From Phorcus lineatus (taxonomy: Eukaryota > Mollusca > Gastropoda > Trochida > Trochidae), in assembly GCA_921293015.1 (NCBI GenBank), contig OV121081.1:27283158-27347157 (forward strand): 64,000 nucleotides of DNA, given 5' to 3'. The notes under the pieces are model-generated. The model had not been told where the DNA came from. It did no database searches and was given only the letters and a program-made list of their open reading frames with translations. Made by a program: the position numbers and the translations under genes. Below are positions 33,617 through 62,962 of the stretch, piece by piece (positions within the stretch are counted from its first letter, which is position 1; every line of letters starts with the position of its first letter).

Positions 33617-35857
33617 TCATTCAGGACACCAGAGCTCAGTACACGCGACCATCCCACCCTCGTCACAAAAGCAATTGTTGCAGTTGTCTGTTGCAGGGAA
33701 TTCGTCTCCAACAGTGTATTCCTGACCATTGTAGGTGCAAGTATCTTCCCCGTTGCAAACTATAATGAAAGGTGATAACATTTATGATAATTCAAATCGT
33801 TGCCTGTCCGTTTATTACTGCATTGTAATATTTGTACGGTAAAATTAAATTTAAGTAGTGTACTACCGCTTCACATACGACGTCACACTAGTGGTGAGTC
33901 GGGATTATGGTAGTTAGGGGATACTGACACTGTCCGATTCCTTATGACTCTGTTACATACATTTACCTTTTTGGCAATGGGTGCTTGATTGGAGACTCCA
34001 CATGTTTTAGAAACGTAAGTTTTCGACGATAAATGACCCTGTGGATGTGGAAATGTAAAAGCTATTTCGGTTCGAGTCGAGAGAATGGCGTTATTATCAT
34101 TCCTTAAAAAAACTGGGAAAAGTGGTTATTCTTAATTTCGTTTTGCAACTCAAGTGCGCTTGTCTGTGATTGCATAAACCCATAGTAACTTCATTGATCC
34201 CTTAACAAAAACACGCTATATAGAAACGCGCAAATAATTTTAAAACCTGCCAAATAAATCAAGTTGACAAAGTCTCTCACATGATGTTTGGGGACTTGGA
34301 ACATACATGTTATTCTTAGATACTGTAATAAGATAAGAGTATTCAGGTATATGACAGGAATTATATCATTCCGCTGTCTGATTCCTTATATGATGAGAAA
34401 TTATTCGTGAATTAAAATGAATGAAATGTTTCATATAATATTTTTGGTGATGCTTTGATTATCTAACAAAAGCAGATGCCTCCCGTGCACTCCTGACACG
34501 TTGTGTCGCGTGGCGAGTGTAACGGAGAGTAACGGAGAGGGCCGAGGTGTTCCGAATGGTTGTGTCGGGTGACGTCGGTTAATCGTTACTGTCAGTGTGA
34601 ATACACCCTTCTAAATCGAATGATTAATATAATGAAGGGACGTTGGATGTCTTAATAAGGAAAGTTTTGTACCAATTGTATGTGACAATTAGTAATTGAC
34701 TGAATCACGATGCTTGAAAATCGATCTAAATCGATTGCCTGCAAAAGACACCTCGTGATGATTCAGATGAATTATTATTATGAACACATTTCTACGTAAT
34801 TCTATCATGATAACCAAAATCATGGTTGAAGACACTGTGCCAAGTAATGTGGTCACTTAAGAATTATAGGCGGTGGAAATGGAAGCATTTTGCAAAATTA
34901 TAGAATAACGTCGCTTCTGTTAATTTGACGAATCGCTTTTTCGGTACGAAGGGCACACAGTTTGAAATCTAATTCGAGGGGTGGGGTGATGCACTTCATT
35001 AAACCCATTTATATAGATTTATCTACTAGATTTCATCACAATTATAGGTTTCATTTAAATCGGTAAACTTTTCGATAGTCTATGAAAACAATAAGTTCAC
35101 CGAGTGCAATTTGTATACGTGCGAGGCGGAATGTGAATCGGTCGGAAAATTTAGAGGTAATTATTGGCAAAATTACTCCAAATTTAATATGTGGAACCAA
35201 TCAGAAAGCAGTATTTTGTATCTAGTTCTTGTGTCAAGAATTGACATTTTTACACAAATTTACCTGCCCACTTTGTCAACGGGCATCCATTTCCGCGTGC
35301 TGCACGCTTTTGCCGTACTATTCGTGGACCCGTTGTCGTTCTCAACACAACAGCAAAAACTCAAGGCGTATTATAGGCCTACAAAGTAATTTTTCTGGTT
35401 CCCTTTCGCGTTAATTTCAAACCCACATACCACATCCGTTTCCCAGGTTAAACAAGGACAGAGGGAGGTAACTCTTTTGGAACTATATTCCGTTCATAGG
35501 GTTTTGATTTTTAAACTTGAACAAGCAAATACTTGACAAAAACATGTTTTGATATTTTTGGCCTTACACGTCAAACCATAGGGATTTACATAAGCTGATC
35601 AAATGGATAAATGTAGGTAAAATGTAGAGCAATAATCCGATGACACGTGGTCACAATGAATTTCCTGCTAGGGTCAATAACACATGTGTAGCATATCGTC
35701 ATTTCTGTAATGATGTGGTTAAAAAAGTGTAGATAATTTTCAAAAATCATTATGAAGTCCCTGCATGGCTCTACGTTTGTACATACCATGGGGTTTTCTT
35801 AAACTGCTCACCTGAACAAACGCTGAATACAGCAAGTGCAAGGAACATAACCAACAT
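33617..35857 (-). CDS. Gene A: secreted six-cysteine VWC/pacifastin-like peptide
   Basis: Two exons, 35857-35812 and 33759-33617, joined in phase 1 across a 2052-bp intron (donor GTGAGC, acceptor TTATAG), encode 62 residues. Residues 1-15 (start MLVMFLALAV) form a signal peptide. The mature part has CNGEDTC and then a domain with spacing C-x18-C-x2-C-x-C-x7-C-x4-C, ending CTELWCPE. The N-terminal half (CTYNGQEYTVGDEF) resembles the first subdomain of von Willebrand factor type C domains. The second half fits the pacifastin signature N-x-C-x-C-x2-G-x4-C-T-x3-C. If it is an inhibitor, the P1 position after CT would be Glu. An additional cysteine precedes the domain. It is the most downstream member of the array, and its function is unknown. 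Confidence 0.85.
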
Positions 35858-35891
35858 GATTTGTATGTTGTACCAGAGACAGTGCCAAATT

Positions 35892-35897
35892 TTATCT
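35892..35897 (-). promoter_or_regulatory. GATA-type motif upstream of gene A
   Basis: AGATAA on the minus strand, 35 bp upstream of the start codon. It matches WGATAR, as in all eight family genes. No clear TATA box is seen. Confidence 0.35.
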
Positions 35898-36047
35898 TGT
35901 GCCACAAGCCCAATCTTCTTAAGTCGACAACTTGGTTTATCCAGGGATCGTATAGACAGGGATATGAAACAAATAGCTGATTGGACTATACACAACTCGA
36001 CTCGCTCATTTGCTGGCCCAGGCAGGTCACGCTACAACGCACATTGA

Positions 36048-36751
36048 GACTGGGTTCTGTTTTTGCGCAAACGTCAATGCACGGTGTTGTGTAACCAGTT
36101 GCGCAATGAAAACAACAATGCATTGTGGGTGTTTTTTTACGGAAATTACCGGATAGAGCCGGGAATATTCGTAAAACGGTTCCGCTGGAAATGTGCGCTA
36201 ATGAGTATGCACTGTGCCCGATCCCAGTCGATCGTGTGTGCGTTGAACCGTAAAGCGAGACGACATAGATTGCTAATTAGCCTTTGTTTAATATCCCTGA
36301 CTTTACGATCCCTGGTTTATCTTAAAATACAATTAAATAAAAAATCTATGCGAAGACTATGACAGAATATGCAGAACATTTTGCAATCCAAATGTGATAT
36401 AAGACATGTATCTTGTCATGTTTATAGATATTGAATTTAATTGTTAATATCCTATGAAAACAAAGGGGTCATAACAATTATCATATAACATAGCTAACTT
36501 GATAATGTAATTCGTTAATTTACAAAATATTCGCCGGTATATAAACTGACATTATGTATTTTGAAACTTTATAACTTTCTAAACGAAAGAAACCCCATTT
36601 ACATTAGAGTCTAAGAACAACAGCAGCTAAACAAAACTTTGTTTCTTACCTCTCAATGCAAATATTGTGTATTTTGATGCTCACTTATACTCAGCTTTTC
36701 GACCATCATTTAGATAAAGGTTACGTTTTTTTGTAAGAAGAATAAAAAGAT

Positions 36752-36753
<2 letters not shown>
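36048..36753. other. No gene seen between gene A and the TA-rich palindrome region
   Basis: The start of this stretch is somewhat GC-richer (36,060-36,310) and has an open frame of 99 residues on the plus strand at 36,063-36,362 with no recognisable domain. I see no splice-consistent gene. Confidence 0.4.

Positions 36754-36817
<64 letters not shown>
36754..36817. repeat. (TA)n microsatellite
   Basis: About 64 bp of TA dinucleotide directly abutting the left end of the 103-bp palindrome. Two more TA tracts follow at 37,016-37,047 and 37,104-37,126. Confidence 0.95.
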
Positions 36818-36822
<5 letters not shown>

Positions 36823-36970
36823 AAAGTCTGGAAATGATTTAAATCCCCGACCGGTTTCACACTATTCACTGAATAGTGTGAAACCGGTCGGGGATTTAAA
36901 TCATTTCCAGACTTTTGTTTGAATAGTGTGAAACCGGTCGGGGATTTAAATCATTTCCAGACTTTTGTTT
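36818..36970. repeat. 103-bp perfect palindrome plus adjacent 50-bp direct repeat
   Basis: 36,818-36,920 is a perfect inverted repeat with 51-bp arms around a single central base (36,869). The arms contain 'gaccggtttcacactattca' and its complement. The right-hand 50 bp (36,871-36,920) is then repeated identically as a direct copy at 36,921-36,970. (TA)n tracts lie on both sides. There is no coding sequence. The absence of any mismatch points to a very recent event or to an assembly artefact at a hairpin. Confidence 0.95.
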
Positions 36971-37013
36971 TTTTATCTATTTATTACTTGAACTATGAAG
37001 AAGTTTTTTTGTG

Positions 37014-37015
<2 letters not shown>

Positions 37016-37050
<35 letters not shown>

Positions 37051-37126
37051 AAACACATTTGTTGAAGAAAACCAAGATGATTTATTCACAAGTACTTTCG
37101 ACCATATATATATATATATATATATA
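37016..37126. repeat. Two (TA)n tracts around a short spacer
   Basis: TA runs at 37,016-37,047 and 37,104-37,126 flank a spacer of about 56 bp containing 'acatttgttgaagaaaacca'. Together with the palindrome at 36,818-36,970 they form one TA-bounded repeat cluster. Confidence 0.85.
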
Positions 37127-38390
37127 ACACATACTTAAAGATGAGACCATTAGTACAGCAGGGTCACACTTTGCTAAGATTTTGATCACCACTAAGGTTC
37201 AAAATCAATGCTAAGTCTCAATTTCTTTAATATCAAAATGATTTTTTGTTGTTGCAAAAACCTTACGATATCATTATGCTAACCAATGTTGTATATTTTA
37301 CACTATAAAAATTGAAAATGTTTGCAAATATGTTATTTTAGGTGGAAACTTCTACATCTTGTCTCATTTTGGGAAGGCAAAATCTGTTCCTGCCATATGT
37401 TCCCCTTCTATATGAACAGTAAAATGATATCTTCATAAAATTTATTAACGTTTTGAATGTAGAGTATATTGTAAAGTACTAATGAAAAACGTTTGTTCAG
37501 CCGCTGTAAAATACCGCCCTACATATTGCAAAGTATTGATCACACAAGACCCTATTTCTAAAGACGTCGGGTCACCTTTAACCTCTTCATATAATTGGCT
37601 TGCCGCAATCGCATTGCGCGATTCGTGGAGGCATAATAATGAAGAAAACCTTTTTTACAATTTCCTGTTGTACAAAGCATTAACAACACTTACAACTTTC
37701 ACAACCAAAGATTAACAACATTTCTTAACCCATCAAAGACAGATGAGCTATATAGTGTTAAGAGCATACAAAATATGTACTTCGAATATGTCTGGTATGA
37801 AGCAACACGATGATGTTTTTCTCTTTTATGTCAGTATTCATACATTTATTTCTAATGTGAATTCATATATGTAACGAAAAAATACTTTCTTTGAATGAGA
37901 CTAGAGTAAATACACATATATCCGGAACTTATATCTACATTAGGATGATTGTATCTAATCATTGATGTAAATGGACAGCATTTTCCCCTCCAAAATATAA
38001 CGAAATCTGTCATTGATGTCTATTTTTAAAACACAATGACTTTAATCTAATAGAAAAAAAGAAGAAAATAAGGAAATAAATCAGCTATAGAGCAAGCTGA
38101 ATAATGTTGCTCACGCGACAGTTGACGTTCTGCAGATTTCAACTGAACCTCCTTCTATTTCGCGTAACTTGATTAAGGACTCGTCTAATGAAAAAGATAA
38201 ACCATTTTTCAAAATAAATTTCAAATATATCTTTTAAAGGTTCTTTGTCTGTATGTACTGTTCGATGTGACCAATGCGCGTTCGCTTAGCTTTAATGATT
38301 TGACAGGGATTCTTCAATATATAGTAATACTTGATTTGAATCAGTTGTTATATTTTTGAGAGTGGATTACTTTTAAAGTTTTGCCGTTGT
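37127..38390. other. No gene seen
   Basis: Intergenic sequence between the TA-rich cluster and the repeat at 38.4 kb. No splice-consistent gene or complete repeat was recognised. Confidence 0.4.
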
Positions 38391-38394
38391 TATG

Positions 38395-39075
38395 TACCCC
38401 GCAAAGCTTTGCCGGAAACATAATGTTTTTAGTTCCGTCCGTGGTTCCGTAATTCCGTAATGCTGTAATTCCGAAATGCTTTCGTTTTCGGACCACATCT
38501 CAAAAACCATTCAATATTATTTCACGAAACATGGTACGTAGTTAGGTCTAGTGGTGGCGTGGTGCCTTTTGCTATTTTGGTTATTCTGAATTTTTTTCTT
38601 GTTTCCATGGAAACAATTTGAACTTGGTATATATAGGGAGGATACTTTCGTTTCCGGGCCATTGCTAAAAAAACATTCACTATTTTCTTTCGAAACTTGG
38701 TATCTGGTTAGATCGAGTGATGGAGTGATGCCTTTTGCTATTTTGGTTACCCAAGTTTGCTTATAATTTTCTGGGTTCCATGGGAATTATTTAAACTTTG
38801 TGCATATGGGGGTAGGGTAATTTTCCAACCTTTATCTATAAATCTAATACTATTTCGCGATGTTTTATTATTCGCGCATTATGACTTTGCGCGAAAAGCG
38901 CGAAAATTAAACCCCTGCGAAATATTATGATTTTACAGTAAGTATTATTTTACTAAACCTGGTATGTGGTTAGATCTAGTGCTTGGGTGGTGCCTTTGCT
39001 ACTTTGGTTATTCTAAATTGTTCATGTTACTTGGAAACAATTTGAACTTAGTGCATATTGGGGGCTGTAGATGCT
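38395..39075. repeat. Threefold internal repeat (unit about 165 bp)
   Basis: Three diverged units at about 38,476-38,640, 38,645-38,815 and 38,940-39,065 each contain a variant of 'ggtaNNtagttagNtcNagtg', then 'tggtgccttttgctattttg' and 'catggaaacaatttgaactt'. A spacer near 38,850-38,935 has 'gcgcgaaaagcgcgaaaatt', itself partly palindromic. The units do not share an open reading frame. It looks like a satellite-like or interspersed repeat cluster of unknown class. Confidence 0.7.
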
Positions 39076-39788
39076 AATCATAATATTTGATAACTATGTG
39101 AGTATCAAATGTCACATTCCCTACAATAAAGAAGTTGACAAATATATAAAACTCTTCCTTATACACCATTGAACTTGTATATTTCACGTGTCATTATTAC
39201 GTCAAGTTCATCGATGCTAATATATTAACCTTTATAATATGTGTTTGGTATGGATTGCTTCTGGTATAAGTGGCAATAGGATGATTAGGTTGGATTAAAA
39301 GTTTGGAAGGGGGGCATCACTGTGCATCACATGCACGTATTTCTAATTTCAACCTACTGTAAGAGCAAAAAAAGGTATTCAACCAAACGCGATGATTGGT
39401 TTTTGTTTGGAGAATAGTGAATGAATTTAGGCTATTTATTAAGACAATTGTCATCTTTATAATTTAATTTCGATTTCTATCATACGTTACTTTTAATCTT
39501 TTAGACAGCTAATAAAGTGTGATTTAATCACAATAGCTTGCACATTTTATCTTGCAGAGTTTAATGTTCAAATCGTTTGGTGATGTCTTCACTTGTCATT
39601 ATCAGTTGACAGAAACATGACAATTATTCTGATGAATTGACCTTGACGAGTCATCTCAATATTTTGTGTTGGGAAGTCAATGTTCGCTGCATTGTGTTGT
39701 GATGGAGTCCAAGTGAAATGTATGAATAGTAAGTCGATAAATTATGAAAAGTGGCAAATATGTTTACTTTACTTATTGGAAGTCTTTT
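39076..39788. other. No gene seen
   Basis: Intergenic AT-rich sequence up to the SINE at 39,796. No feature supported. Confidence 0.4.
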
Positions 39789-39795
39789 CTAATGT

Positions 39796-40037
39796 AGGGA
39801 TAGCGCAGTGGTTAGCGCGTTCGGCTTCGGAGACAGACGTCCGAGGTGCAAATCCCGCCAGGGGCTCGGCAACTTTGTCTGCAGTAGAAAACTGTTCTAC
39901 ACGCAGTCAGGTTTGGGTGCAATGCTACACTGAATTTCAGCGCAGTACCACCCATGGTTCGCTAGTTCCAGCCGATGCTCGCAGGTTTTACTGCAATGCA
40001 TAGCCACAATAGTGTTGCGGGCTTATAATACTAGCAA
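39796..40037 (+). mobile_element. tRNA-derived SINE with putative 7-bp target duplication
   Basis: The head has an A box 'tagcgcagtgg' at 39,801-39,811 and a degenerate B box 'aggtgcaaatccc' at 39,844-39,856, and then runs into a non-tRNA body. The sequence 'ctaatgt' occurs just before (39,789-39,795) and just after (40,038-40,044) and can be read as a target-site duplication. It is a different family from the SINE at 1649. A 107-residue frame running through it is not a gene. Confidence 0.65.
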
Positions 40038-40520: not shown

Positions 40521-41351
40521 TTAACCAACATTGATGCACCCTATCTTTGTGCATCCGTAAGTTCCACTTGCTGAACAGTAGCATGTGTTGCAACCATCAG
40601 GGGCGGGGAACTTTGAACCTGATGCGTAGGTAACTCCGGCAACGATACAGTCTTCTGGTGGAAAAGTAAATGAATGCATCACGTAGTGTTATTGCCATCA
40701 TAATTAAAGGACAAGTTTCAAAGAGTCAACGAAATAGTGGTTCACTTTGTCATTTACAAATTGGGAAACAATATGAAATCATTGCATATTTTATTCCAAT
40801 TTCGATTACACTTGAAAAATATGATAGAACGTGGGTAATTAACTGATACGTCGTATCTATATTACAAGATGAATTTTCGCCGTGGTGAGATTTTCAGTTT
40901 CATTACATTACATAAATATTTTCTCTTTGAAAAAGTTACGTTTTTTTAGAGCTATCCAGTGTTTAGAATAAGAAATGCAGAAACAGCACATGTTTATCAA
41001 CCCAATAAATTTCAACTAGTTTAATCAGAAAACATTTCCCTTGTAAAAAAAGTAAATGTTCACCTTCCAAACCAGGTTTCGAATTTTGATCATAAGAGAT
41101 CTTATCTGACTTTCAATTACACAGTAATCCTATATTTTCTTTACACCCTACGACTTGTACAAGTAAGTCATACTTCGAAAAAATCGGGGTAATAGCCCTA
41201 TCAATAGTAAAATCCAAAGGTCTTATGTTATTTTGCATTCATTGTTTACAACATTTTATTATATCTAAATCAAAATTAATATCAACTTACTGGCATCAGA
41301 TATGGCAAGAGCGGCGCATAGGCAAATAAGAACGAAAACAGTTGACCTCAT
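40521..41351 (-). CDS. Gene B: secreted six-cysteine VWC/pacifastin-like peptide
   Basis: Exons 41351-41291 and 40654-40521, intron 636 bp, phase 1 (donor A|GTAAGT, acceptor CACCAG), encode 64 residues. A hydrophobic signal peptide (start MRSTVFVLICL) ends near the exon junction. The mature peptide begins DC and has C-x18-C-x2-C-x-C-x7-C-x4-C, ending CTKIGCINVG. NTCYCSASGTYGC followed by CTKIGC fits the pacifastin signature. The residue after CT is Lys, which would suit a trypsin-type target if the inhibitor reading is right. AATAAA reads on the minus strand at 40,488-40,493, just past the stop. The longer frame that extends upstream of the start is not used, because ATG at 41,351 begins the signal peptide. 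Confidence 0.87.
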
Positions 41352-41413
41352 GATGACAGTTATGCTCAAGATTTTCTGACTAGTCTCGGAAGGAATCAAA
41401 GGTGTAGGCTTGT

Positions 41414-41445
41414 TGATAAGACAGGTGTTTGGTAGTAATATAAAT
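41414..41445 (-). promoter_or_regulatory. TATA-like box and GATA motif upstream of gene B
   Basis: On the minus strand, ATTTATATT at 41,437-41,445 is a TATA-like box about 90 bp upstream of the start codon. CTTATCA (GATA core, 41,414-41,420) follows it. A transcription start near 41,410 would fit. Confidence 0.45.
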
Positions 41446-42526: not shown

Positions 42527-43508
42527 TCATCCTAGGTGTGGACTGCACATGTTCTTAGTACACATGGTACGGACTCCAGGTCCACAGATACACATGTTAC
42601 ACATGTCCGTAGATAGGAATCTCTCCCCAGCATGGTACACCTTCCCATCTCCCCCCAGACATGTCTCCTCCTCCCCTTCCACTAGAGCGTAGGAAAACAG
42701 ATGAAAACAGTTAGAAAGAACAAATCAAGGATTGTTGTAATTGTATTTTACACTATGGTTTACTTGATATATTTAATAAGAATCGAGAAATAAAAACTCT
42801 GAAAATATAGTGTATAGATTGATAAGCATACACAATGATGACTTCTCCCAAAATGATTGATTGTTAAGGTAATTAGGTATTCTAAATAGAGATAATATTT
42901 AATAGAGAATTCAGCATGTTTATGTCGTTTTCCCCGTTATCTGACCCGAAAACGTTTAAGTATCGCCGCGATTACTGCTTCCTTTATGATTGAGTGATAC
43001 GACTTAAAAGTATGAACTGAGCCTTTACTCAGCCTTACTCTGACGATTAGATCATATTAATGCAGTATTCCTATCAGTGAAGGGTAACGAATTTACACAC
43101 TGATGTTTACGTACATGCGTGACAACAGTCCCTTGTCACAAGAGTTGCAATGAAGCCAGTAAGTCCGTTTTTACATGAACAACAAGTGACACATTCATGA
43201 ATCATAATTGAATAATAGACCTATGACCTTATATTATAATAAAATTCTCAATTAAATGCCTGAGGAAACTAGCTACATGTCCTTCTATGTTAAAACATTG
43301 TTGAAATCTTCTCAAAGCATTAACCTGTGTCTATATGTTGATTCAACCTTACAAGATAAGGTTAGTATACAATACATTACAATGCAGATATCATATTATT
43401 ATTCAAACATTATAAATTTTGACAATTAAAATTTGAAGAAGATATATCACTTCCCTTACCTTGGAATAAGATAGAAAGTGAGAGTAAAATAAAGAATAAC
43501 ACCTTCAT
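42527..43508 (-). CDS. Gene C: secreted six-cysteine peptide, acidic N-terminus
   Basis: Exons 43508-43460 and 42681-42527, intron 778 bp, phase 1 (donor GTAAGG, acceptor CTCTAG), encode 67 residues. The signal peptide starts MKVLFFILLS. The mature part begins with an acidic run (VEGEEETC) and has C-x19-C-x2-C-x-C-x7-C-x4-C, ending CTKNMCSPHLG. The pacifastin-type half CNMCICGPGVRTMCTKNMC is intact, with Lys at the possible P1 position. Exon 2 is more GC-rich than its surroundings, and an open frame on the opposite strand at 42,450-42,692 is only its shadow. The gene lies about 200 bp downstream of the stop of gene D, the tightest spacing in the array. Confidence 0.87.
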
Positions 43509-43560
43509 AGATGGAATTGGCACAAAACTTATACACTGATACAACCGTGTGTGGCAAATT

Positions 43561-43584
43561 ATCTTATCTAGGTGCCTATAAACC
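43561..43584 (-). promoter_or_regulatory. TATA-like box and double GATA motif upstream of gene C
   Basis: On the minus strand, GGTTTATAGG (43,575-43,584) is followed by TAGATAAGAT (43,561-43,570), 53-76 bp upstream of the start codon. This is the clearest TATA-plus-GATA arrangement in the family. Confidence 0.5.
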
Positions 43585-43717: not shown

Positions 43718-45542
43718 TTAACCGAAAAGGTCAGCACATCTTCGCTGTATCCCTCTGAAGGGTGAGTTTATACAGAAGCACCTGTCACAACTGATGCTTC
43801 CCTGGAAACAGAAGCAGGTGTGACAGCCTTTGCTATCAATAAACTTCTCTCCAGTCTGGAATACTCTTCCATCGTCTGTTGTGCAAGATCCGTCCTTTAT
43901 GGGAGCAGGAGCTAAAAAGAAAAAAGGATTATTTTACTTGTATTTAAGTTTCAGACACAACCGCATTCTTATTCTTACCTATGATTTTCATTGTTAATTG
44001 ACGTCGAGTTGAAACAATAGTTTATCTGTTTTGGTTCTTGGAAATGTTGGGGAAAAGTTATTTCGACTATTTGTATTAGTCAAGTAAGGGGTTAGTCGAG
44101 TTTATAATGTTATGCATGTCCCTCCGTGTTAAGAGCCGCCTATTGACTGACAAGAGACGGTACTCTTTCTTTTGAGGTTCAAGGGAAATGCATTCACTGC
44201 ACTGACTCTCAACTCCCGTGTTTCGAGGAAGGGTGTATTCTAAAAGGAGGCCGATATTTGCGGTATTGTGTTATAAGTGGCTTACGTCTTCCTCATATTG
44301 ATGTTACAGTGTGCAGTATTCTATCAGGAGCAGTGTTATCGTTTGGGTCTCCTTTCACAAAGCAACCTTTACTAAAGTTAAGCTTAACTGTCATCCTTTA
44401 ACATTGTCCTAGGATTACCTTAGGGCTTTGTGAAAGGAGGCCTAGATCTGTAAATCAGGGTACGTTTCAAACCATATTTATAAAACATTCCGACCTGGAA
44501 TAGTTAAAACTTTCCAATAGTATCGCATCTGTAAAAATCTTCACACCTTTGGAAACTTTCAAAAGTTAATGAGGGAAAAGCTTTCGATTTGCATTGAGAC
44601 CATATTTTTAATTCCGTGCTGGTACTTAATAATGGAATGTTCTCTAAACATATTAGCTTAAACATATAACATGTATAGTTATAAAACTATCATATTTCAT
44701 TGTCGTATTAAAGTGATATCGATAAATATGTTTTAACTGAAACATGAATATCACATTAGTTTTTCTAAAAATTACGATGGATACTCTATATAATACAGCT
44801 GCATACCGAAAGTTTGTTCACTTACCACTGAATCGTAGTGCAAATATGATGTAATTTGGGTTTCTTACAACGTCAATAGAACAACTTCAGCAAAACTGAC
44901 AATGGATCACCCACTGTCTATGTGAAATAGCCATTCTTGAACTCACGCAAAAATTAAAAATTTAGAAAGAAGGGGTCATAGTTTCGAAATTTCGATTTCG
45001 TTTAATGTCAAATGAAATGTTCAATATCGATTAAAACCAACCAAATCAGATTGACTTTGTGCTAAGGACTAATTTTTAAAGAAGTAGATAATTTGTAAAG
45101 GATTTTATGGAGAAAAATAAAAATTAGTGTTTTCGGAATTTTGACCCCTGGTTACTTCAATGTCCTGCCGAAACTGTTACGGGTAATTGTGGGGGTATGA
45201 TAAACATTTGCCTTGCCGAAGAATGGATCTGCATATCTGTCTTGAAAATTCAATTATATACGTTTCTTTTTCGCATCGCTACGATACCTCAAAGGCATCT
45301 CAAATTACATGATATTTGCACTAGTATATTCAGGTATGTGAACAAACTTTTGGCATGCAGCTGTACATATGGCTTCTTTGAAACAGCTATATTTTAATTT
45401 TATGACTTCGACAAACGTTTTATCAATGAAATAACCATTTTATTTCTAAATTGGTTTAAAATTGAAAGGTAAAATTAAACTCACCACAGTGTGTGTAAAT
45501 CACAGAGATCAGAACTATGCAAGCAATAATTTGAAGTTTCAT
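43718..45542 (-). CDS. Gene D: eight-cysteine divergent family member
   Basis: Exons 45542-45485 and 43911-43718, intron 1573 bp, phase 1 (donor GTGAGT, acceptor TTTTAG), encode 83 residues, the longest single-domain member. The signal peptide starts MKLQIIACIVL, and cleavage before APAPIKDG is plausible. The six-cysteine frame is kept, C-x19-C-x2-C-x-C-x6-C-x4-C. An extra Cys lies inside the last loop (CDRCFC), and another in a basic tail of about 17 residues (RGIQRRC). The extra pair could form a fourth disulfide. The Thr and the Asn/Gly positions of the pacifastin signature are lost. Two transposable elements sit in its intron. Its poly(A) signal is probably ATTAAA near 43,695. Confidence 0.85.
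44346..44442. mobile_element. Small palindromic MITE in the intron of gene D
   Basis: The left end 'ggtctcctttcacaaagc' and right end 'gctttgtgaaaggaggcc' are inverted repeats of about 18 bp. Between them are further complementary pieces ('aaccttta' / 'taccttag', 'gttaagcttaac'). There is no coding sequence. It is a short non-autonomous foldback element lying wholly within the gene D intron. Confidence 0.72.
44796..45363. mobile_element. Complete non-autonomous TIR element with TA target duplication, in the intron of gene D
   Basis: The left terminus 'cagctgcataccgaaagttt' is matched by the right terminus in reverse complement, 'cagctgcatgccaaaagttt', with TIRs of roughly 33 bp. TA flanks both sides (44,794-44,795 and 45,364-45,365), as for Tc1/mariner-type insertions. 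The 568-bp body holds only short frames, so it is non-autonomous. Related copies are at 13,296-13,720 and from 63,761 to the window end. Confidence 0.85.
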
Positions 45543-45611: not shown

Positions 45612-45617
45612 TTATCT
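45612..45617 (-). promoter_or_regulatory. GATA motif fused to a TATA-like string upstream of gene D
   Basis: TATAGATAAC on the minus strand (45,611-45,620), about 70 bp upstream of the start codon, combines a TATA-like string and an AGATAA motif. Confidence 0.4.
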
Positions 45618-45620
45618 ATA

Positions 45621-48813: not shown

Positions 48814-50414
48814 CTACTGCCCAATGCATGCCATCAGCGTACAGAAGACCGCGTTTTTGCCTCCACATCCACAAGAGTTGCATCCATCAGTGGACTTGAA
48901 TTTGTCACCACTCTCGTATACTACGCCATTGTACAGGCACTGGGTCGGTGTCAGGTCTTTCTCTGTGTATTTGAAAAATCATCATACAGAGCTCTTGTAA
49001 AGTGTTGAATCACAAATACGTCACTCAATATAAAAGATAAGGCCCAATCAATATAAAAGTTAAGGCCCATCCCGATTTTCAGGCTTTAAAAATCATGTGC
49101 ATTAGTTTATTAACATTGGACTATCTCAAAATGAAAAGAAATTAAGGTGGTCATTATCAAAATTTGCTGAGGATAGTTTACTGCAAGCAAAGTGGTATCG
49201 CTAAACCAATTGTTATACTGAAAATTAGAAAGGAATATTTGATATTGCATGATGTCATGTCAAATTTGTGTCAGTGAATAGTGAAAGGTGTCAGAAAATG
49301 AATAGGGTATCATCCATAATTTCAAATTTACCGTAATATCCATAACTACCTACTCTAGTATGTAAGATTTGTTTAGCAAGCACCGATGTGAATGTTCATC
49401 CACAAAGTATAATAATAAATGCCGATGAAGGAACAAACGGATCATTTGTGGAGACATTGATCCTCGTCTACTCCAATCTTTTATATACTCTGCATTATAG
49501 CAAGGACTTAATGGTCGATTATGTGGTAAATGTACTATCATTTAAAGCGCGTTTCAAGATCCGTTAAAGATTTTGTTCCATTCGCAAGTGTATATTAACC
49601 ATACTGCAACTTGGAAGTGGCAGTAGCAAGTTGAGTTTTTTTTTGAGAAATAAAGTGATCTCACAAAAACGAAAATAAATGGTACCAATTGCAAGACAAT
49701 ATCATTTAATCAAAAGAAACAGTTCTTAATCAAACGTACCGGTGTTCAGTTAGGCTGTGCTCTTCCATTTACCTACCTCAAATGATTAAAAGGTGTTCAC
49801 ACAAAAATGACCGTTGTCGGGTCCTTTGGAAAAATTATCTAACCCATTTCGAATAAACTATTGTTAATTTGGGCAAATTTGAAGAAATAAATTGAGCAAA
49901 CACATGCCTTGAATATATTTGGTCGAGCCAAAGCAGTAATGAACTCGTGTGTATTCGAAACTTCTCAACGTAGAATTCAGGTAGACTTACAGTCTACTTT
50001 AGATGTGAAGGTAAAACTGACTTAACGTTTCATCGTCAGCAATGCATGTAAGTTTAAATTTTCAAACACCCCTTTAAGAATGATGCGAATAATGACTTTC
50101 TTTTTAAGCAATCATAATTGAGATCCATAAATCATCTGAATATTCGAAATATCAAAGTAAGTTTCTCAATAATCATAATTTAGAATATAAATCAATTACA
50201 TTTTCTTAAGATTTTGTTTTGAAACCACAATAATATGTAACATATAACGGATGTAACTTTAAAACTAAGATTAATTTTTTTTGATTTATATTATAGTCTA
50301 TCATATTAAATGATACATGCTTCTCACGGACATGTTCTAAGGCACATTACCTGAGACAGCAAGGCTAACTGCAACAAATGCAGCAACCAGCATCAGTACA
50401 ATATAAAACTTCAT
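48814..50414 (-). CDS. Gene E: secreted six-cysteine VWC/pacifastin-like peptide
   Basis: Exons 50414-50351 and 48962-48814, intron 1388 bp, phase 1 (donor GTAATG, acceptor ACACAG), encode 70 residues. The signal peptide of about 21 residues starts MKFYIVLMLV. The mature peptide begins EKDLTPTQC and has C-x18-C-x2-C-x-C-x7-C-x4-C, ending CTLMACIGQ. The core KSTDGCNSCGCGG and the VWC-like CLYNGVVYESGDKF match genes F, G and H closely. The glycine of the pacifastin signature is shifted. The residue after CT is Leu, as in chymotrypsin-directed pacifastins. ATTAAA lies about 20 bp past the stop on the minus strand. Confidence 0.88.
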
Positions 50415-50471: not shown

Positions 50472-50477
50472 TTATCA
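50472..50477 (-). promoter_or_regulatory. GATA-type motif upstream of gene E
   Basis: TGATAA on the minus strand, about 58 bp upstream of the start codon. A weak TATA-like ATATAT lies near 50,515. Confidence 0.35.
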
Positions 50478-51915
50478 TGGTTCGTTAGCCAGGCTTTCAA
50501 GGAGTGTATCATGCATATATTCTTTTTCTATTCTTAAAGTGAGCATATGTCCGTTTTCTCGTGTGACATTGGATTGTGTGAAGACAGTGGCTTCTCTTAT
50601 TATCAAGTGGAAAATATATTATCTTCTGTGAATGGTAAATACCCTTGTTTCATTGTGTCGGAAATTTAAAAATATCCTCAAAATTATCCATTTTACATTC
50701 CAGAAGTATATCAAAACGAAGTTCCCACAAGCCGTACATCAAATCATCACAGTAGACAAATATAACCTTCCATCAACACGTTTTACTGTCTCAGTCATGA
50801 AGAATTCATCATCTTAATTACGCTTGGTAATACATAGCCAATTTAGAAACCCGAAATGTTCCAGAACACCAACTCTGTCTGGCGACTAATCAAGACTCAA
50901 TCTAAAGTTTCAAATTCAGTACTTAAAGGCTCGAGAACTGGATTACTGGGGTAGTACCTGAAACATTATCTCTGACAATACCTTTCATCATCACTGATCA
51001 TAAACGTTTCTAGAAATTCATATTCGAGGTTTGACTCTTTGCTTATTTGAAATGAACTTTAAAGTCTCTCGTCATTATGTACCAGGTTTTAAAGGTCCCT
51101 TAGATTAAATAAACCTATAGCACTGGACAGTCGTAGGACGATGACATTAAATTAATGAAGGAAACATTTATTCATCATCATGTGTATAAATGGCATCTTA
51201 TCATGTGCCCTCAACTTTATGTACTGTCAATCTGTAAAGGTAACTAATAAATTTAAATGTTATCACGCATAGACAACAATTACTGATTGCCACAACAATC
51301 ACTGGTGAACTTGATATTTACTTAAATCTTGTGCATTATTAGCAATTACACTGAGAGAGGTTTCAATAAGATAATTTCAGGAATTCCATACTTCATAACC
51401 TACGTTTTGTAATTGTTTCCCAAGTAAATGAAGTATAATCGATGGATTGATTTGAAACCTATCAGTTAAACTTCATTGATTTATATGTGAAATATAACTG
51501 TGGCTGGTTATATGAAACGTTTATCTCTTTCACTATCAAATGAGAATGTATTTATACCTAAGTTAAATTTAAGTCGTTGAAAATAGAATATCAGTATGCT
51601 GGATAATTGCGTTGTACGAGGGTCATAAGTGAATGAGGTAATCAAAGTTTTTGTTTGTGGTGAAAAATAGGTATCCGGTACCATGACTGATACCAAATAT
51701 AAAAGAAATGTTTGTAGAATCACCTTCAGTGGGATCCGAGCAAGTGATCTCATTAAGACATTCAACTGATTGAGTCAAAGAGATAGCCTTGTTGCCATGG
51801 ACTGTAGGAACACTGCTCTAATTTTTTACAAACCAAAACGCATTTGTGCAAGTTGTTTATATTAATGCTCCAAGTAATTTGAGTTTTATAGCTTTGATAA
51901 AAATGTGAATATATG
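50478..51915. other. No gene seen between genes E and F
   Basis: Intergenic sequence with no supported gene. An 85-residue minus-strand frame at 51,508-51,765 has no domain. Confidence 0.4.
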
Positions 51916-52151
51916 AAATGTTAACATAATTTGGAATTACAAACAAGGAAATAGTAATTAACATAATTCTGTTTTAATCCATGAATATTCATCCTTCAAA
52001 TGGAACACCGATACAAGCCATCTCAGTACATATATCAAATGTTAACATAATTTGGAATTAAAAACAAGGAAATAGTAATTATCATAATTCTGTTTTAAGC
52101 CATGAATATTCATCCTTCAAATGGAACACCGATACAAGCCATCTCAGTACA
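51916..52151. repeat. 115-bp tandem duplication covering the 3' end of gene F
   Basis: Units 51,916-52,030 and 52,037-52,151 are nearly identical (a few substitutions) with a 121-bp period. The second unit includes the last 42 coding bases and stop of gene F. The first is a downstream copy carrying the same end of the coding sequence beyond the stop. It is a recent local duplication and does not disturb the reading frame. Confidence 0.92.
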
Positions 52152-53101
52152 GGCCATCATGCCATCTGCACAGAAACACGTGTTGCATCCATCAGTGGAC
52201 TTTATCCCTCCTTCTCCAGAGTTATAAAGCTGACCGTTGTAGTGACACTTATGAGTAATGGATGCTGAAATCGAGCGTGATTGTTTATACACCTCCTTTT
52301 ACCATATTTTAGGAAAGTTATCATATATGTGTGTTTAAAGGTATTTTGTCTCATCTTATCAATATACTAAAAACTATCCTTATAAATGGCAATTTATTTC
52401 TTTAATTTCTATCCTTGGTAATTTGTGTATTTTTGCATTTCAATTATGTCGCTTAACAGGATTTGATCATTTTGTCTTTTTCAAAAGGACGGAAAAGAAA
52501 ACAAGAGATCATGCAGTTTAAACAAACGTCAATAACTTTATACAAAAATGAAATAACAAAACGAAATATCCAGTTGACCCGAAAAGACAAGTCAACAGTA
52601 AATGTATATCATCCGTTTATAACATATACGCCATAAGAGATGCCAGTTTTATTTATTTTGAGAAAATTCAAAATCAATGTCCTAATGTTGTCTTAAAAAA
52701 ACACCACTAATGTATCTCCTGTTTTGCATTGTCCTGCTTAATGCATTGTTATTATAGATTGTATATCTTTCATAAGACATGTAACAGATATATATTTCAT
52801 TAGACAATGAAGGGAATGCCGCGATCTAAATTACTTTTGCATATCAAGGTTGAAAATTGTCTTTTGCATTTCATATAATTCCCTATAAAACATATCAAGT
52901 GGAAAATTCAAAGCTAATCAATCGCAACCGCCATAAAAACGATAATTTATCTTTCCTGATTAATTAGGATTTAAAAGGCGTGCACTACGTTTACTCTTTT
53001 AAAAATGTCCTTTAACAACATCGGACATACATGTTGCTCTTACCAGATTCTGTTGTTGCTGCTACAAAGAGGAGGAACACGGACAGTAGGACAAGCTTCA
53101 T
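52110..53101 (-). CDS. Gene F: secreted six-cysteine VWC/pacifastin-like peptide
   Basis: Exons 53101-53044 and 52264-52110, intron 779 bp, phase 1 (donor GTAAGA, acceptor TTTCAG), encode 70 residues. The signal peptide starts MKLVLLSVFLLF; the mature part begins near ASITHKC. The domain is C-x19-C-x2-C-x-C-x6-C-x4-C, with CHYNGQLYNSGEGG in the VWC-like half and CNTCFCADGMMACTEMAC as an exact pacifastin-signature half. The possible P1 residue is Glu. The C-terminal tail is IGVPFEG. It is most similar to the second domain of gene G and to E. Its 3' end is included in the tandem duplication 51,916-52,151. Confidence 0.9.
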
Positions 53102-53151
53102 TTCTTTCGATGTACAGCTTTAATAAGATGACAGTAACATGTGGTGTTTCA

Positions 53152-53157
53152 CTATCT
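53152..53157 (-). promoter_or_regulatory. GATA-type motif upstream of gene F
   Basis: AGATAG on the minus strand, about 51 bp upstream of the start codon. Confidence 0.3.
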
Positions 53158-54565: not shown

Positions 54566-54569
54566 GTGT

Positions 54570-55139: not shown

Positions 55140-55144
55140 GTGTT

Positions 55145-56692: not shown

Positions 56693-58381
56693 TCATCCCA
56701 CAGGTGCACATGCAAGTTCAGTGCAGATGACCATGCCGTCATTACATCCACATCCATTACACCCGTCAGCTGACTTGAATCCTTCCCCGTCCTGGTACGT
56801 TTGTCCATTATAGTGACAGGACTTGTGAGAAGATTTCTGAGATGCACAGTTGACGTCTAGGCAGGTCATCGTACCATCTGAACAAGTGCAACTGGTGCAG
56901 CCATCAGCAGACTTATACTGCTGTCCATCCTTGTAGACAATTCCTTGGTAGTGACAAGGTCTGGAGATGGACACTGAAATGTATTCTCTGGTCATGAAGA
57001 GCATGGCATGTAGTGAGAACAATGGTTTTAAGAATTCCAGCAAGAATGGAACTTTGACCCGCACTGATCACAGTTCAATCTCTTTGCAATATTAGGCAAG
57101 GTCTACCAGATTAACATGAGAACAGAACAGAACAGAACAGAAGTTTATTGCATTTCGGGGCCAGGAGGATTAGAGTACAAATGCAGTTAACAATAGTTGG
57201 TTCATCAAGATGTTATTATTGATCATGCATATATTGTTCTTAAGGGGTGTTTTAGATCCACATGAAATTAGGCAAGTCTTGTGAACAGGATGAATGTCAA
57301 AGCGTCGGCTATTTTTTTACCCTCATGTATCAGGTATCTGGTTGACTTACTACACCACGTTGAAGCGTCTTTGACACTGTGAATGGCGTTTATTTTAAGA
57401 AAAATCAAAATCAAGCAGTCAAATATCAATCTCATTAAGTTTTACACAGAAGATTGAGGTAAAAAAAATGTTGTTCTAATTTAATGAGATTGAGATTAAA
57501 TTAACCAGTATCTAATTTGAAGTAGATTTTGCAATACTCGTTAATTGTTAGAGGACTTTCATTTTCAAATTCATAGGTCTATGGAATGCGTTGTAGGTCA
57601 AAACGTTTTTCAAGTTGCATCAATTTAAAACTTTTTTTATGAAAAATATTTCTTATACTTAATTGACCTTTATAAAGGAACGTATAAAGCCCAGGTTTAA
57701 GTGTTGAAAAGGTTTAATAACTAATCAAATATATACTGTAAGTAAGTGACTACAGATTCAGGTTATCATATTCGGCCTCTCTTTATCTTATCATTGTCCT
57801 AATTGCAGGACAAAATTATTTATGTTATTTCAAATTGATTTTCACCTATTTTGTCGATAAAAGAAATAATAAAGAATAATCAAACGGTTATCATTATCGT
57901 AACCAACCGTAAAATCAACTTTAAAATGACTGTATATTTGACATTTCTATTCTTAATGTTAACCAATTTCATAGCTTCATTAAACTAAGCAAGGGCTTTT
58001 TAATGATAACTATTTTGGTAAAGATAAATCACCTTTCGTATTTCACCATTTGACTATCACATTTCATATTGTACATTGTACAGGGCATTTATAGAAAGGA
58101 AACGCATTGATTTAAATTATTTATCATTGAATACACACATATAATTTGATTACATTGACAAATATGAAGTTATTCAAATGTAATGTCACCTGTAAAGTTA
58201 GATTTAATTAGAATAAAAATCATATATTATTATTAATGATTACATTCATATTCTATTTCACATGTGAATGCAATTCCAGTGATTTTTTTGGTACTATTTC
58301 ATACCATAGTTTGTAAGTTTTCTCACCTGATAATGCAACTGCAAAAACAGCTGAACAAATCAACACTGGCAAACACGTCAT
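56693..58381 (-). CDS. Gene G: secreted protein with two six-cysteine domains
   Basis: Exons 58381-58327 and 56973-56693, intron 1353 bp, phase 1 (donor GTGAGA, acceptor TTTCAG), encode 111 residues. The signal peptide starts MTCLPVLICSAVFAV. Exon 2 encodes two tandem domains without an intervening intron. Domain 1 (residues about 25-61) has CHYQGIVYKDGQQYKSADGC and ends CLDVNC. Domain 2 (about 71-107) has CHYNGQTYQDGEGF, KSADGCNGCGCNDG and CTELAC. Both follow C-x18-C-x2-C-x-C-x6-C-x4-C and are joined by ASQKSSHKS. Domain 2 fits the pacifastin signature; domain 1 lacks the Asn and Thr. The domains resemble each other, and genes E and F, more than genes A to D, which suggests internal duplication of an E/F-like domain. 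Confidence 0.9.
57119..57215 (-). mobile_element. Retroelement 3' tail with (TTCTG)n, in the intron of gene G
   Basis: Read on the minus strand, GGCCCCGAAATGCAATAAAC runs into a (TTCTG)n tail of four to five units. A poly(A)-type signal followed by a short simple-repeat tail is typical of truncated non-LTR retroelements or SINEs. The family was not identified, and the 5' limit is approximate. Confidence 0.55.
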
Positions 58382-58430
58382 ATTGGCACCTACAGTTCTT
58401 GGAGTATTTTCTTAGGTGTGTAAACGTCAG

Positions 58431-58460
58431 GATAAGCTGACTCTTATCTATTCTTATATC
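58431..58460 (-). promoter_or_regulatory. TATA-like box and two GATA motifs upstream of gene G
   Basis: On the minus strand, TATAAG (58,454-58,459) is followed by AGATAA (58,444-58,449) and TTATCC (58,431-58,436, GATA core on the other strand), 50-78 bp upstream of the start codon. Confidence 0.45.
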
Positions 58461-59216
58461 TAGTCGATATAGCAAAATAACCATAGTTTCTCTTTTGCGA
58501 GTGGGTCGTTGAAAATGATGCAATTTTCTTTTCTTGAGATTATTACTTATGTATTAGTACCTCAGGAAAAGTGTGGTGTAAAACTTGCCTTTATCTTGAA
58601 ATCTTATCTTTGTATGGAGATACCAACATATGCATGATTTCGTTTAGTTGTGTGGTTGTGGCGTTGGCATTAATACATTTAAAATCTCATATTTCTGTAC
58701 TGATTCTTAACCAAGGTTAGATAGTTGACTTCCGTACGTTTTACTCATAATTGCAAATATCCATCAACACTTATATAGGATCAACATGTTATTATCATCA
58801 TATTATTATTATCATTATTATCATCATCACTATTGCTGTTATTGTTTTATAATGATGAGAATACATTATCACACATGAAACGGTGAAACATAGCTTGCAT
58901 TCGGAAAAACAATGAATAGATAGCATTAGAAAGTGACAAGGACTCAATTTCCTCAACTTTTGATACCAAAATGACTTACTATAAACTTAAAAATTTACGA
59001 TGGTCACATTTGAATGAAAATGATATTTTAGAGAAAGGGGAAATAACTGGTCCGTGTTTGTTAGAATATCTGTCACCATGTGTGGTGCATCATGGACAAC
59101 ATTCCTAACTCATTGACGCCCAGACAAGCTTCACGGCACAACGCCTGCTCCCAAAACCACAAAAGCTGTTCATTGAAGCGAGACCAGTGAAGGCAAAGTA
59201 CCACATGTTTTGAAAG

Positions 59217-59308
<92 letters not shown>

Positions 59309-61671
59309 ACACACACAGAGACAGACAGAGACAGAGACACAGAGACAGAGACACAGAGAGATTATTATTATCTCAGTTAATACAATCGTCAATTGAAATA
59401 CATAAGATGTACCCATTGCGCCATTTATATTGGACAAAATTAATTAAAGACGCTTTTCAAAGAATCTTTTTCCCACTTCGAATGAAGAGCTCCCAGAATC
59501 ACCTCTGTTTTAAGTTTTTTTAATCCTCTGTCTAAGCGGAATGTTTATATTTACCTGTTATATATTTTCAAAATGACCACATACTTCTACTAAAACACTA
59601 TATTTTATTCCTGTCATGACGACTCATGGAAACATCTCACTTAGGATACGCTAGTCTTTGTTGACTGATAGCAAACTGATAACTAAAATGATTGAATTGT
59701 AATACAATCGGACTAATGCACAAATGTAACACTTACTGAATGTGAGTTGCATTCAGTTAACGCACACGAGAGTCTCTCGCTGTGAGAAACTGCCAATTAA
59801 CGGACGTTTATGTGCGGCTCTCGCTGTGAGGATCACATGGATGCATCGTCGTCTCTCGGCGTTGATGAGTTATTAGCGAATGAAAGGAGAGCATATGAAA
59901 ACAAAACAAACTGATGTTATCATTCTTAGTCAATTCGGTAAAACTTAAAGATTTAGATTCCTCGTAATTGTTGGTATCGTCTGTGCAAAACACTATCACA
60001 TGTGTTTTTTATACTCGTATTTTCTGAAAGCAACCCATTTCTTTTAGATTCTGGTATATATAACCCAATAGTGAAAGAGACTCATTCTCCGGTGTGACTC
60101 GTGGGCCAAACATTTATTTTGACGTAGCAGTGTGACGACAGGCCTATGTTTTTACTGGTCATCAAAAAAGTTCAAGTGTCTGACGTCATAACATTATGGT
60201 ATGGATAAACAGAACTCTTATGACGTCACATCATTACTGTGTGGAGGGGATGCGTCTGCACTAAATGAATTCATAAGCATAAAAGCCTGATCAAATGTCA
60301 TGAAAAGCTTGGAATTATTATGTTGAAGAACCATATGATGATCACATCCTTAATAAACAAAAGGGTAAATTAATGAAGAATATATTTTCGAAGCAATTGT
60401 TCCATTACAAATATGTGTTGTGTAATAAAAATATTGTTATATCAAACTGAATAATGTAGAAATTGTACCGTTGCAAGTAAATGTCACATGCAATTTGCGG
60501 TAAAAACGTCACAGTGGTATAAGTGCCTAAAAAATCTTAGATATTGATTTATTTCGTCTGTAACTCATGCTACTAAACTGTAAACCATTTTCATTACATT
60601 CGTTAATGCATCAACACATTCACTCCCTTCAGAGGTAGCTCCGTCATTATCCCTATACAACCTCTGTTCTATTACGAGCTCTTCTAAGGTTTCCGGCTTC
60701 TTGCGGCAGAATATTGCAACATAAGCTACCTTGCATTATGTCAGCCAATGAAAACACCATATTCATCGATAACGTATTCGTTGTTACTGAGCCCTGTGTA
60801 ATGATGCCGTCGCCAAACAAGGGGAATGTGTTCTGTAAAGAAGACACAAAATGCAAAGTGCATATTCTAATGTATATTGTAGTTATCCGAAATCTCAGTT
60901 GAAAATAAGTGAGGCGTTTTGAATTATAACTTTTTAAACAGCGTCGCTTAAATTACACAACTAACTTCGACTGCATCCAATAAGGTTTCTACATTTCTAG
61001 AGGAGAATGGCTCGTATTGCGACAGAGGTTGTATAGGAATTTATGACGGAGCTAAACATGTTGTTAGAGAATGGTTTTATGCCTTCGCTAGTTTTAAAGT
61101 TATTGGTCAAAACCGCCTACGTTTCATAAAGCATTTCGAACAATTAAATCCATAAGGTCATGAGCAAAATGCTGATTACCAGGCAATAGTGCTTTTAACC
61201 ATACACCAAAACCTCAAATACCGTATATGCCGTTAGTCTGCCAGTGTTGTTTCCAAAGTGAATTCGGGGTCATGCTTTACATACAAAGAGGCAAAGTGTA
61301 AATCAATGAGACGACCGTGTTTGATTTTAAATATAGTGCCCTTACTTGCTTGTTATTTATTCGGTCTTCGTAGAATTTAATTGATTTATATCCCAGTAGT
61401 AGTCTGTCTGTGGAATACATTAATGATTATTAATGTTGTATCTTCTATTTGGCTTTACTTAAAACTCATTTAACCTCTTTATTACTCGCTTATGTAAGAT
61501 ACTGTAGTGTAATATTTATACGGCGATATAAAACTTGTGTAATACCGCTGCACGTATGACGTCACAATATTGTGTGGTTGTGACGTCACAATGTTCGCAC
61601 CGCTGTCACAATGGCGGCCAAGTCGCGGAAATGTTTCGTTCAGGACACTTTCGGCAATCATTCTTGATTAC
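58461..61671. other. No gene seen; microsatellites
   Basis: No supported gene between genes G and H. There are (ATT)/(ATC) runs near 58,790-58,850 and the long GA tract listed separately. Opposite-strand frames of 60-110 residues here are low-complexity or domain-free. Confidence 0.5.
59214..59360. repeat. (GA)n microsatellite with AC and AGAC variants
   Basis: About 90 bp of GA dinucleotide (59,214-59,305, with two ATAG interruptions) runs into a short (AC)n and then AGACAG-type units to 59,360. The Leu-Ser repeat frames on the minus strand are artefacts of this tract. Confidence 0.95.
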
Positions 61672-62100
61672 TAAGGTTGCGCGGTATTATCGGTATATCG
61701 GTATATTGCAATACAGAAAAACCACGATACGTACCGGTACAGTCATCTTAAAATATCCAATATATCGTAGGTTTTAGAATGAAAACTTTCCGTGTAAAAT
61801 TGCAGAATAACGTAACAAAAACGCCCTTTGATTATACTGAAAGTTTTAAAAAATTGTTAACTTGCAAAGTTGAAAAAGCACAGACATGTTAAAAGTATGA
61901 AACCAGTCGCTGAATTACCTCACTTTCCAAAACGTCGTCTACTTGAGCATTGATTACTGTTCTAATTACTGTTCTTAGTCAAAAGAACATAGAAAACCTA
62001 AAACATGAAAAGTACCAATATATTGCAATACGTATTGCAATACGCTTTTGTGTTTCGCAATATATTGCGATATGGAAATGAGGACCGATACCCATCCTTA
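61672..62100. mobile_element. hAT-like MITE with 8-bp target-site duplication
   Basis: This 429-bp element starts 'taaggttgcgcggtattatc' and ends 'ggaccgatacccatcctta', whose reverse complement 'taaggatgggtatcggtcc' matches the start imperfectly. The 8-bp sequence 'ttgattac' flanks it exactly on both sides (61,664-61,671 and 62,101-62,108). 'caatatattgc'-type strings occur near both ends. An 8-bp duplication and short TIRs are hAT hallmarks. There is no transposase, so it is non-autonomous. Confidence 0.88.
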
Positions 62101-62392
62101 TTGATTACTGAGGTTAAGTAATAAACAGAATACTAAACTTCCTTCATCTTATATCTTTTTATTAATCTCGTTAATGATTTGGTATGAAACTCGCTTTCGC
62201 TCGTTTTATACTTAATTATTAGCTCGTTTAATGAAAATAGTATTACATGGAAGGTCATTTAGTATCTTCTATTTATTACTCAGAAACCCGGCTCGTCCTC
62301 CTTGGACTATTTCAAACATCAAATATTCAATCTAGGACAACTGTATTCGAGTTTATTTCATAGAAGAGGTAAGGCGGTATGCATATTTAGTT

Positions 62393-62962
62393 TCATCCAT
62401 CAAGTGGTAATTGAAGGCATGCCCTCTGAGTACACATGGCGAACCCGTTCATACAGCCACAGGTATTACAACCGTCAGAAGACTTGAAGTTCTCTCCACT
62501 TGAATACACCTTTGTGCCAATCATGCAGTCCTTAGCGGCATCTGCAACAAGCAAAAATATTTCTTTTAAAGTTAACCTATATTCGAATATCTGGAAGGAA
62601 TAGAAAACAGAAGCATGAACTTTTTAATAAGCTGAGCAAACTCCCCCTTCATAATTGCATACTTAGAGATTAAAATTATTTTAAGATAATAATTCTCATT
62701 TTAGTCATCAGAAATGGATTGAATTCGACAAAGAGATATATAATCAATTAGCTAAAAAATCAAACTAGTCCAAAGTAAAAATAATTGAATATTGAAAATA
62801 ACGATTCCGATCGATAATTTTATAAATCCAAGAGCATCAATAAATAATTTAATAATTTTTAATAATGAGAACAGTTGTAGATTTGTCGATTAATTATCAA
62901 TATCTCTGCTTACCAGCAACTGTAAAAGCAAGGAGAAGAAAGAAAACGCAGTATAGTTTCAT
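62393..62962 (-). CDS. Gene H: secreted six-cysteine VWC/pacifastin-like peptide
   Basis: Exons 62962-62914 and 62541-62393, intron 372 bp (the shortest in the family), phase 1 (donor GTAAGC, acceptor TTGCAG), encode 65 residues. The signal peptide starts MKLYCVFFLLLAF. The mature part begins DAAKDC, then C-x18-C-x2-C-x-C-x6-C-x4-C, ending CTQRACLQLPLDG. The core FKSSDGCNTCGC matches E to G, and CNTCGCMNGFAMCTQRAC fits the pacifastin signature, with Gln then Arg after CT. AATAAA on the minus strand at 62,352-62,357 is about 36 bp past the stop. It is the most upstream member seen; the array may continue beyond the window. Confidence 0.88.

Follow-up and report, generated by a model that had tools for sequence, protein, structure and literature searches.

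Phorcus lineatus, the thick topshell, is a grazing snail. A 64 kb stretch of its chromosome 1 (C1:27283158-27347157; hereafter the window, within which positions are given) carries an array of eight two-exon genes, all on the minus strand, at 33617..62962. The genome searched comprised 74 contigs and 957,807,699 bp. The published description, cited like the other papers below from the portion of its text available, counts 78 scaffolds and 957,853,961 bp, so that a few small pieces are missing from the searched genome, and states that annotation is still pending (PMC10444997).

Architecture, copy number and age of the array

All eight genes share one plan, in which a signal-peptide exon is followed by a phase-1 intron (372 to 2052 bp) and a cysteine-domain exon. 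In every model the acceptor is in frame, the intron is bounded by GT-AG, no inner stop occurs and the upstream ATG exon has a hydrophobic start. Nine distinct domains came out of a six-frame motif scan, in eight open frames that all lie on the minus strand; the only plus-strand match was an unrelated hydrophobic frame. A scan for signal-peptide exons, whose cut-offs were fitted to the weakest of the eight genes and which was hence not blind, returned nine candidates in the window, eight being the signal exons of these genes and the ninth lying on the plus strand; 80 kb of flanks yielded none in either orientation. An earlier note on this stretch had described eight genes on one strand, with identical architecture and clean splice junctions, each encoding a secreted six-cysteine peptide with a single cysteine-domain exon. 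Strand, architecture and junctions are borne out throughout, and secretion is supported. The mature peptides of five genes do have six cysteines, but those of genes 1, 4 and 7 have 7, 8 and 12, and the single domain exon present in each gene holds two domains in gene 7.

A profile built from the nine domains picked up no additional member in 40 kb to the left or to the right. Whole-genome protein searches with genes 8, 4, 1, 2 and 3 found nothing on chromosome 1 outside the window; besides the array they recovered a locus of seven domains on C19, and their weaker matches included VWC domains. When the Pfam model Pacifastin_I was searched against the whole genome, 14 places were matched, seven of them in the array and one, weakly, elsewhere on chromosome 1 (C1:8569078, E 0.08). 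Rfam gave no match in the window, and NCBIfam none for the four of the eight proteins that were submitted. Poly-A signals lie within 300 bp after all eight genes and were given no weight, because 54% of background stretches carry one too. A candidate ninth copy, suggested by a 78-bp repeat at 44787 and 63752 that resembled a duplicated signal exon, was rejected, the repeat being part of a dispersed element. This element is about 600 bp long with inverted ends of about 67 bp and occurs at 44787-45365, from 63752-64000 onward and near 13294; the first two copies are 84% alike and the third 68%, and one copy lies inside the intron of gene 4.

The second exons of genes 2, 5, 6, 7 and 8 align to each other at the DNA level, while those of genes 1, 3 and 4 do not. 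Introns and 600-bp upstream pieces gave no between-gene alignment at E 0.01, save for one 26-bp match between introns 6 and 7, and the copies are therefore old. To judge from these alignments, the duplications are ancient rather than a recent burst, and cysteines and reading frames have been kept since; tandem duplication with constant cysteine spacing and variable other residues, as the earlier note had it, is supported. That the models are chance open frames or dead copies, for which the loss of alignment in three of the eight second exons might speak, is very improbable: in the other five genes conservation is confined to the second exons, all nine domains retain the six family cysteines without a stop, and eight signal exons each stand ahead of a domain exon with almost none elsewhere in the window or the flanks. 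On this combination of exon-only alignment, kept cysteines and frames, and paired signal exons, chance origin was rejected, and the eight genes look real. A tree of 30 domains (nine from the array, seven from C19 and 14 of 19 VWC domains), built on 38 columns, had one supported fork, with the array rows mixed among the others, and was given no weight.

Domain type

In each of the nine domains the six cysteines follow the family order, including CxxCxC and Cys5-x4-Cys6, a stretch of 18-19 residues separates Cys1 from Cys2, and the Cys4-Cys5 loop contains a Gly. Asn stands right after Cys2 in seven of the nine (the exceptions being Thr in gene 7 domain 1 and His in gene 4), and Thr follows Cys5 in seven. 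Neither mark was seen in any of the 19 VWC domains taken from this genome for comparison, a set obtained from 24 rows counted on both strands by dropping five of the C5 locus L014, which held the only two Asn and the only two Thr of the 24. The second half of the VWC module, with its Cys-Cys pair, is absent from all nine array domains and present in 19/19 of the VWC domains, partly by selection because those 19 were found by matching the VWC model.

The curated Pfam cut-off of Pacifastin_I (PF05375) is passed by four of the eight proteins (genes 2, 6, 7 and 8); genes 1, 3 and 5 fall below it, and gene 4 has no match. For VWC (PF00093), seven of the eight proteins lie below the cut-off and only the two-domain gene 7 exceeds it, by way of two summed stretches; genome-wide, none of 38 VWC matches falls in the window. 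Full VWC membership was rejected on the missing second half, the sub-threshold scores and the lack of genome-wide matches in the window. The VWC-type relationship proposed in the earlier note thus survives in part: the domains fold like the first half of a VWC module, but they lack the second, and the pacifastin marks separate the array (7/9) from the VWC set (0/19). The hidden Markov model comparison that it had suggested likewise splits, with PF05375 above cut-off in 4/8 and PF00093 in 1/8.

In a profile search of solved structures, the best matches included the pacifastins SGPI-1 (E 1e-4) and LCMI-II (7e-4), and Foldseek with the gene 2 model placed pacifastins at ranks 2, 5, 6 and 8. On these comparisons, each domain is equivalent to the first half of a VWC module, and the long Cys1-Cys2 stretch, the Asn after Cys2 and the Thr after Cys5 make the 'ancestral' pacifastin type an apparently better fit than VWC. 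In the available portion of a recent survey (PMC13388995, 2026), the Ancestral class is defined by 13-20 residues between Cys1 and Cys2, against 9-12 in the Conventional class; it has an Asn after Cys2 that is called invariant, is common in molluscs with Lys and Glu at P1, and includes solitary domains. The family criteria given there include disulfides 1-4, 2-6 and 3-5 and serine protease inhibition. An older study, as far as its text was available, had found no pacifastins in molluscs (PMC2689174, 2009).

Upstream GATA sites and neighbourhood

A WGATAR site begins 40 to 75 bp ahead of the ATG in all eight genes, in the other orientation in genes 2 and 8 (Table 1). This pattern was first seen by eye and tested afterwards: of 256 motifs with this form, only GATA occurs in 8/8 genes within one 45-bp stretch, the runner-up reaching 7/8, and in 4000 random draws, each of eight 250-bp pieces from the region, 6/8 was reached 30 times and 7/8 never. 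Among 20 control genes for G-protein-coupled receptors, chosen from 148 matches and with the start taken as the first ATG of the frame, one has a site at that place (Fisher P 3e-6). Over larger upstream intervals the all-eight pattern loses strength, P being 0.003 when 150 bp are considered and 0.03 when 250 bp are. No TATA box was found in any of the eight upstreams with a strict pattern. Because the upstream pieces are otherwise without alignment, the putative GATA site seems to have been kept or regained for use, and it is a likely promoter switch common to the eight genes.

Table 1. Exons and upstream GATA sites of the eight genes. Positions are those of the window; pLDDT, predicted local distance difference test.
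Feature	Position	Strand	Basis or remark
Gene 1 exon 1, signal peptide	35812..35857	-	splice model and signal-exon scan
Gene 1 exon 2, one domain, 7 cysteines, P1-P1' E-L	33617..33759	-	Pacifastin_I 23.7 bits, below 27.9 cut-off
Gene 2 exon 1, signal peptide	41291..41351	-	splice model and signal-exon scan
Gene 2 exon 2, one domain, P1-P1' K-I	40521..40654	-	Pacifastin_I 31.6 bits, above cut-off; AlphaFold pLDDT 80.5
Gene 3 exon 1, signal peptide	43460..43508	-	splice model and signal-exon scan
Gene 3 exon 2, one domain, P1-P1' K-N	42527..42681	-	Pacifastin_I 27.0 bits, 0.9 bits below cut-off
Gene 4 exon 1, signal peptide	45485..45542	-	splice model and signal-exon scan
Gene 4 exon 2, one domain, 8 cysteines, P1-P1' R-C	43718..43911	-	no Pacifastin_I match; VWC 18.3 bits, below cut-off
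Gene 5 exon 1, signal peptide	50351..50414	-	splice model and signal-exon scan
Gene 5 exon 2, one domain, P1-P1' L-M	48814..48962	-	Pacifastin_I 22.6 bits, below cut-off
Gene 6 exon 1, signal peptide	53044..53101	-	splice model and signal-exon scan
Gene 6 exon 2, one domain, P1-P1' E-M	52110..52264	-	Pacifastin_I 33.4 bits, above cut-off
Gene 7 exon 1, signal peptide	58327..58381	-	splice model and signal-exon scan
Gene 7 exon 2, two domains, P1-P1' D-V and E-L	56693..56973	-	above cut-offs: VWC 48.0, TILa 33.6, Pacifastin_I 30.1 bits, each the sum of two stretches
Gene 8 exon 1, signal peptide	62914..62962	-	splice model and signal-exon scan
Gene 8 exon 2, one domain, P1-P1' Q-R	62393..62541	-	Pacifastin_I 37.2 bits, above cut-off; AlphaFold pLDDT 77.8
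GATA site, gene 1	35892..35897	-	from -40 of ATG
GATA site, gene 2	41414..41419	+ (other orientation)	from -68
Two overlapping GATA sites, gene 3	43559..43569	-	from -61 and -56
GATA site, gene 4	45612..45617	-	from -75
GATA site, gene 5	50472..50477	-	from -63
GATA site, gene 6	53152..53157	-	from -56
GATA site, gene 7	58444..58449	-	from -68
GATA site, gene 8	63003..63008	+ (other orientation)	from -46
Second GATA site, gene 8	63028..63033	+ (other orientation)	from -71

In the surrounding 144-kb region, 40 of 41 open reading frames of at least 95 amino acids were scanned with Pfam (gene 7's own was omitted), giving one short-chain dehydrogenase-type match and one reverse transcriptase match (RVT_1). 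A long open frame at L029:6064-7044 on the minus strand reads like a reverse transcriptase. Left of the array, 55 of 87 shorter frames were aligned and 10 scanned, so that the neighbourhood is partly covered. Short-chain dehydrogenase-like exons (Pfam adh_short 28.0 and 25.6 bits, cut-off 26.6) lie on the minus strand at 28793-29764, some 4 kb past gene 1. A Tc3-like transposase match just below cut-off lies on the plus strand at 2100-2324 and, like the reverse-transcriptase-like frame, is read as a piece of a transposon. Within the array, a 121-bp unit is duplicated in tandem at 51909-52151, overlapping the end of the gene 6 second exon, and between genes 1 and 2 (36755-37047) AT microsatellites surround an inverted repeat of 67 nt, 91% complementary, and a perfect tandem duplication of 50 bp. 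Elsewhere in the genome, C19:19502808-19513117 contains six weak VWC-like matches in 152-amino-acid frames about 2.04 kb apart, as if in a tandem 2-kb unit. The mitochondrial contig C74 (19,115 bases) contains nearly 3 kb of (TA)n at about 6300-9200, which would explain the unusual mitochondrial size of 19.1 kb (PMC10444997).

Reactive sites, proposed function and known relatives

The P1 residues of genes 1 to 8 are E, K, K, R, L, E, D and E (the two domains of gene 7), and Q. Lys at P1 (genes 2 and 3) and Leu (gene 5) are predicted to suit trypsin- and chymotrypsin-like enzymes, which acidic residues would not. Taking these sites together with the domain type and the upstream pattern, we read the array as eight working genes for small secreted serine-protease inhibitors built from free-standing domains of the ancestral pacifastin type, under a common GATA switch, and give this reading a probability of about 0.5. 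The signal peptide would export each peptide from the cell, where six cysteines, paired in disulfides, would clamp a small beta fold presenting the loop Cys5-x-P1-P1'-x-Cys6, and this loop would block a serine protease. Old tandem duplication would have provided copies with different P1 residues, so that several proteases could be met jointly, and a GATA-type factor acting just before each start would turn on expression of all eight genes together. GATA factors drive blood-cell genes in other animals. The tissue would most likely be the digestive gland or gut, or the haemocytes; the GATA factor ELT-2 drives gut genes in C. elegans (PMC4446034, from the portion available).

Several observations weigh against this reading. 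P1 is acidic in four of the nine domains, which speaks against inhibition for some copies, and the Cys at P1' in gene 4 speaks against it for that copy; inhibition is graded as likely in some of the eight genes, but doubtful in gene 4. Moreover, VWC and related modules match the array in sequence and fold as well as pacifastins do. The acidic P1 residues and these matches would suit an alternative in which the peptides, as half-VWC modules, bind growth factors or form part of matrix, shell or mucus, without inhibiting proteases, as would a VWC/pacifastin protein listed in Lottia shell matrix (PMC4094399) and the link drawn between ancestral domains and adhesion and matrix proteins (PMC13388995), both in the portions available. 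The second half is missing from every domain, however, and the pacifastin marks are found in 7/9 domains against none of the 19 selected by the VWC model; we regard such a non-inhibitory role as a tentative alternative, rather unlikely but to be taken seriously.

Less probable still is that these are secreted defence or gland peptides, antimicrobial or salivary and venom-like, in which the clamped fold serves as a neutral scaffold. The peptides are indeed small, secreted, cysteine-rich, encoded in tandem and variable in charge (net -10 to +1), but they are mostly acidic or neutral, unlike usual antimicrobial peptides, and the animal is a grazer. Pacifastin-like transcripts have been reported from glands of Vexillum snails (PMC9363990, portion available). 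We would also advance, as a long shot, that the GATA-switched inhibitors, nearly half of whose reactive sites are acidic, are directed against glutamyl-type endopeptidases of gut microbes or algal food, their domains having been freed by single-exon duplication of a multi-domain gene rather than by the proteolytic cutting proposed for arthropods.

If the peptides inhibit proteases, one animal would provide a ready-made set of ancestral-type pacifastins that differ in their reactive residues, and a gene-by-gene test of these old domains as inhibitors outside arthropods. The array also suggests a second route from multi-domain protein to free inhibitor, through gene duplication, and the common GATA site yields a concrete tissue prediction.

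The nearest relative in the genome is probably the locus at C19:34548000-34553300 (L033, L034), where seven exons for pacifastin-type domains follow each other on one strand at intervals of about 1 kb and probably form one multi-domain gene, in contrast to the one domain exon of each array gene. Its domains are of the same type, with Asn after Cys2 in 7/7 and Thr after Cys5 in 3/7 (hand count); four of its seven domain exons have a phase-1 acceptor by the last-AG rule, to be compared with the phase-1 introns of the array, and its last exon ends in -NPVG and a stop, as do several array genes. Its promoter is uninformative because its signal exon is ambiguous.

Among known systems, the arthropod pacifastins SGPI-1, PMP-C and LCMI-II share the Cys5-Thr-P1-P1'-x-Cys6 second part and, partially, the fold, but have 9-12 residues between Cys1 and Cys2 (PMC13388995, portion available) where the array has 18-19. 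The VWC domains of collagen IIA, CCN3 and NELL2 resemble the array in the sequence and model of their first half and differ in possessing the second half with its Cys-Cys pair. In the titles and abstract openings retrieved from the literature on pacifastins and on VWC gene clusters, no mollusc with single-domain pacifastin genes arrayed in tandem appeared. The 'ancestral' pacifastin-like domains of PMC13388995 agree in six-cysteine order, in the 18-19 residues between Cys1 and Cys2, for the most part in the Asn after Cys2 (7/9), in the Gly between Cys4 and Cys5 (9/9) and in having Glu and Lys among the P1 residues; the topshell array differs in being eight tandem genes with one two-exon plan and a common GATA site, of which none is described in the available portion of that survey. 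The family is already known; new details, within the literature searched, are the arrangement as an array, the variety of reactive sites and the common GATA site.
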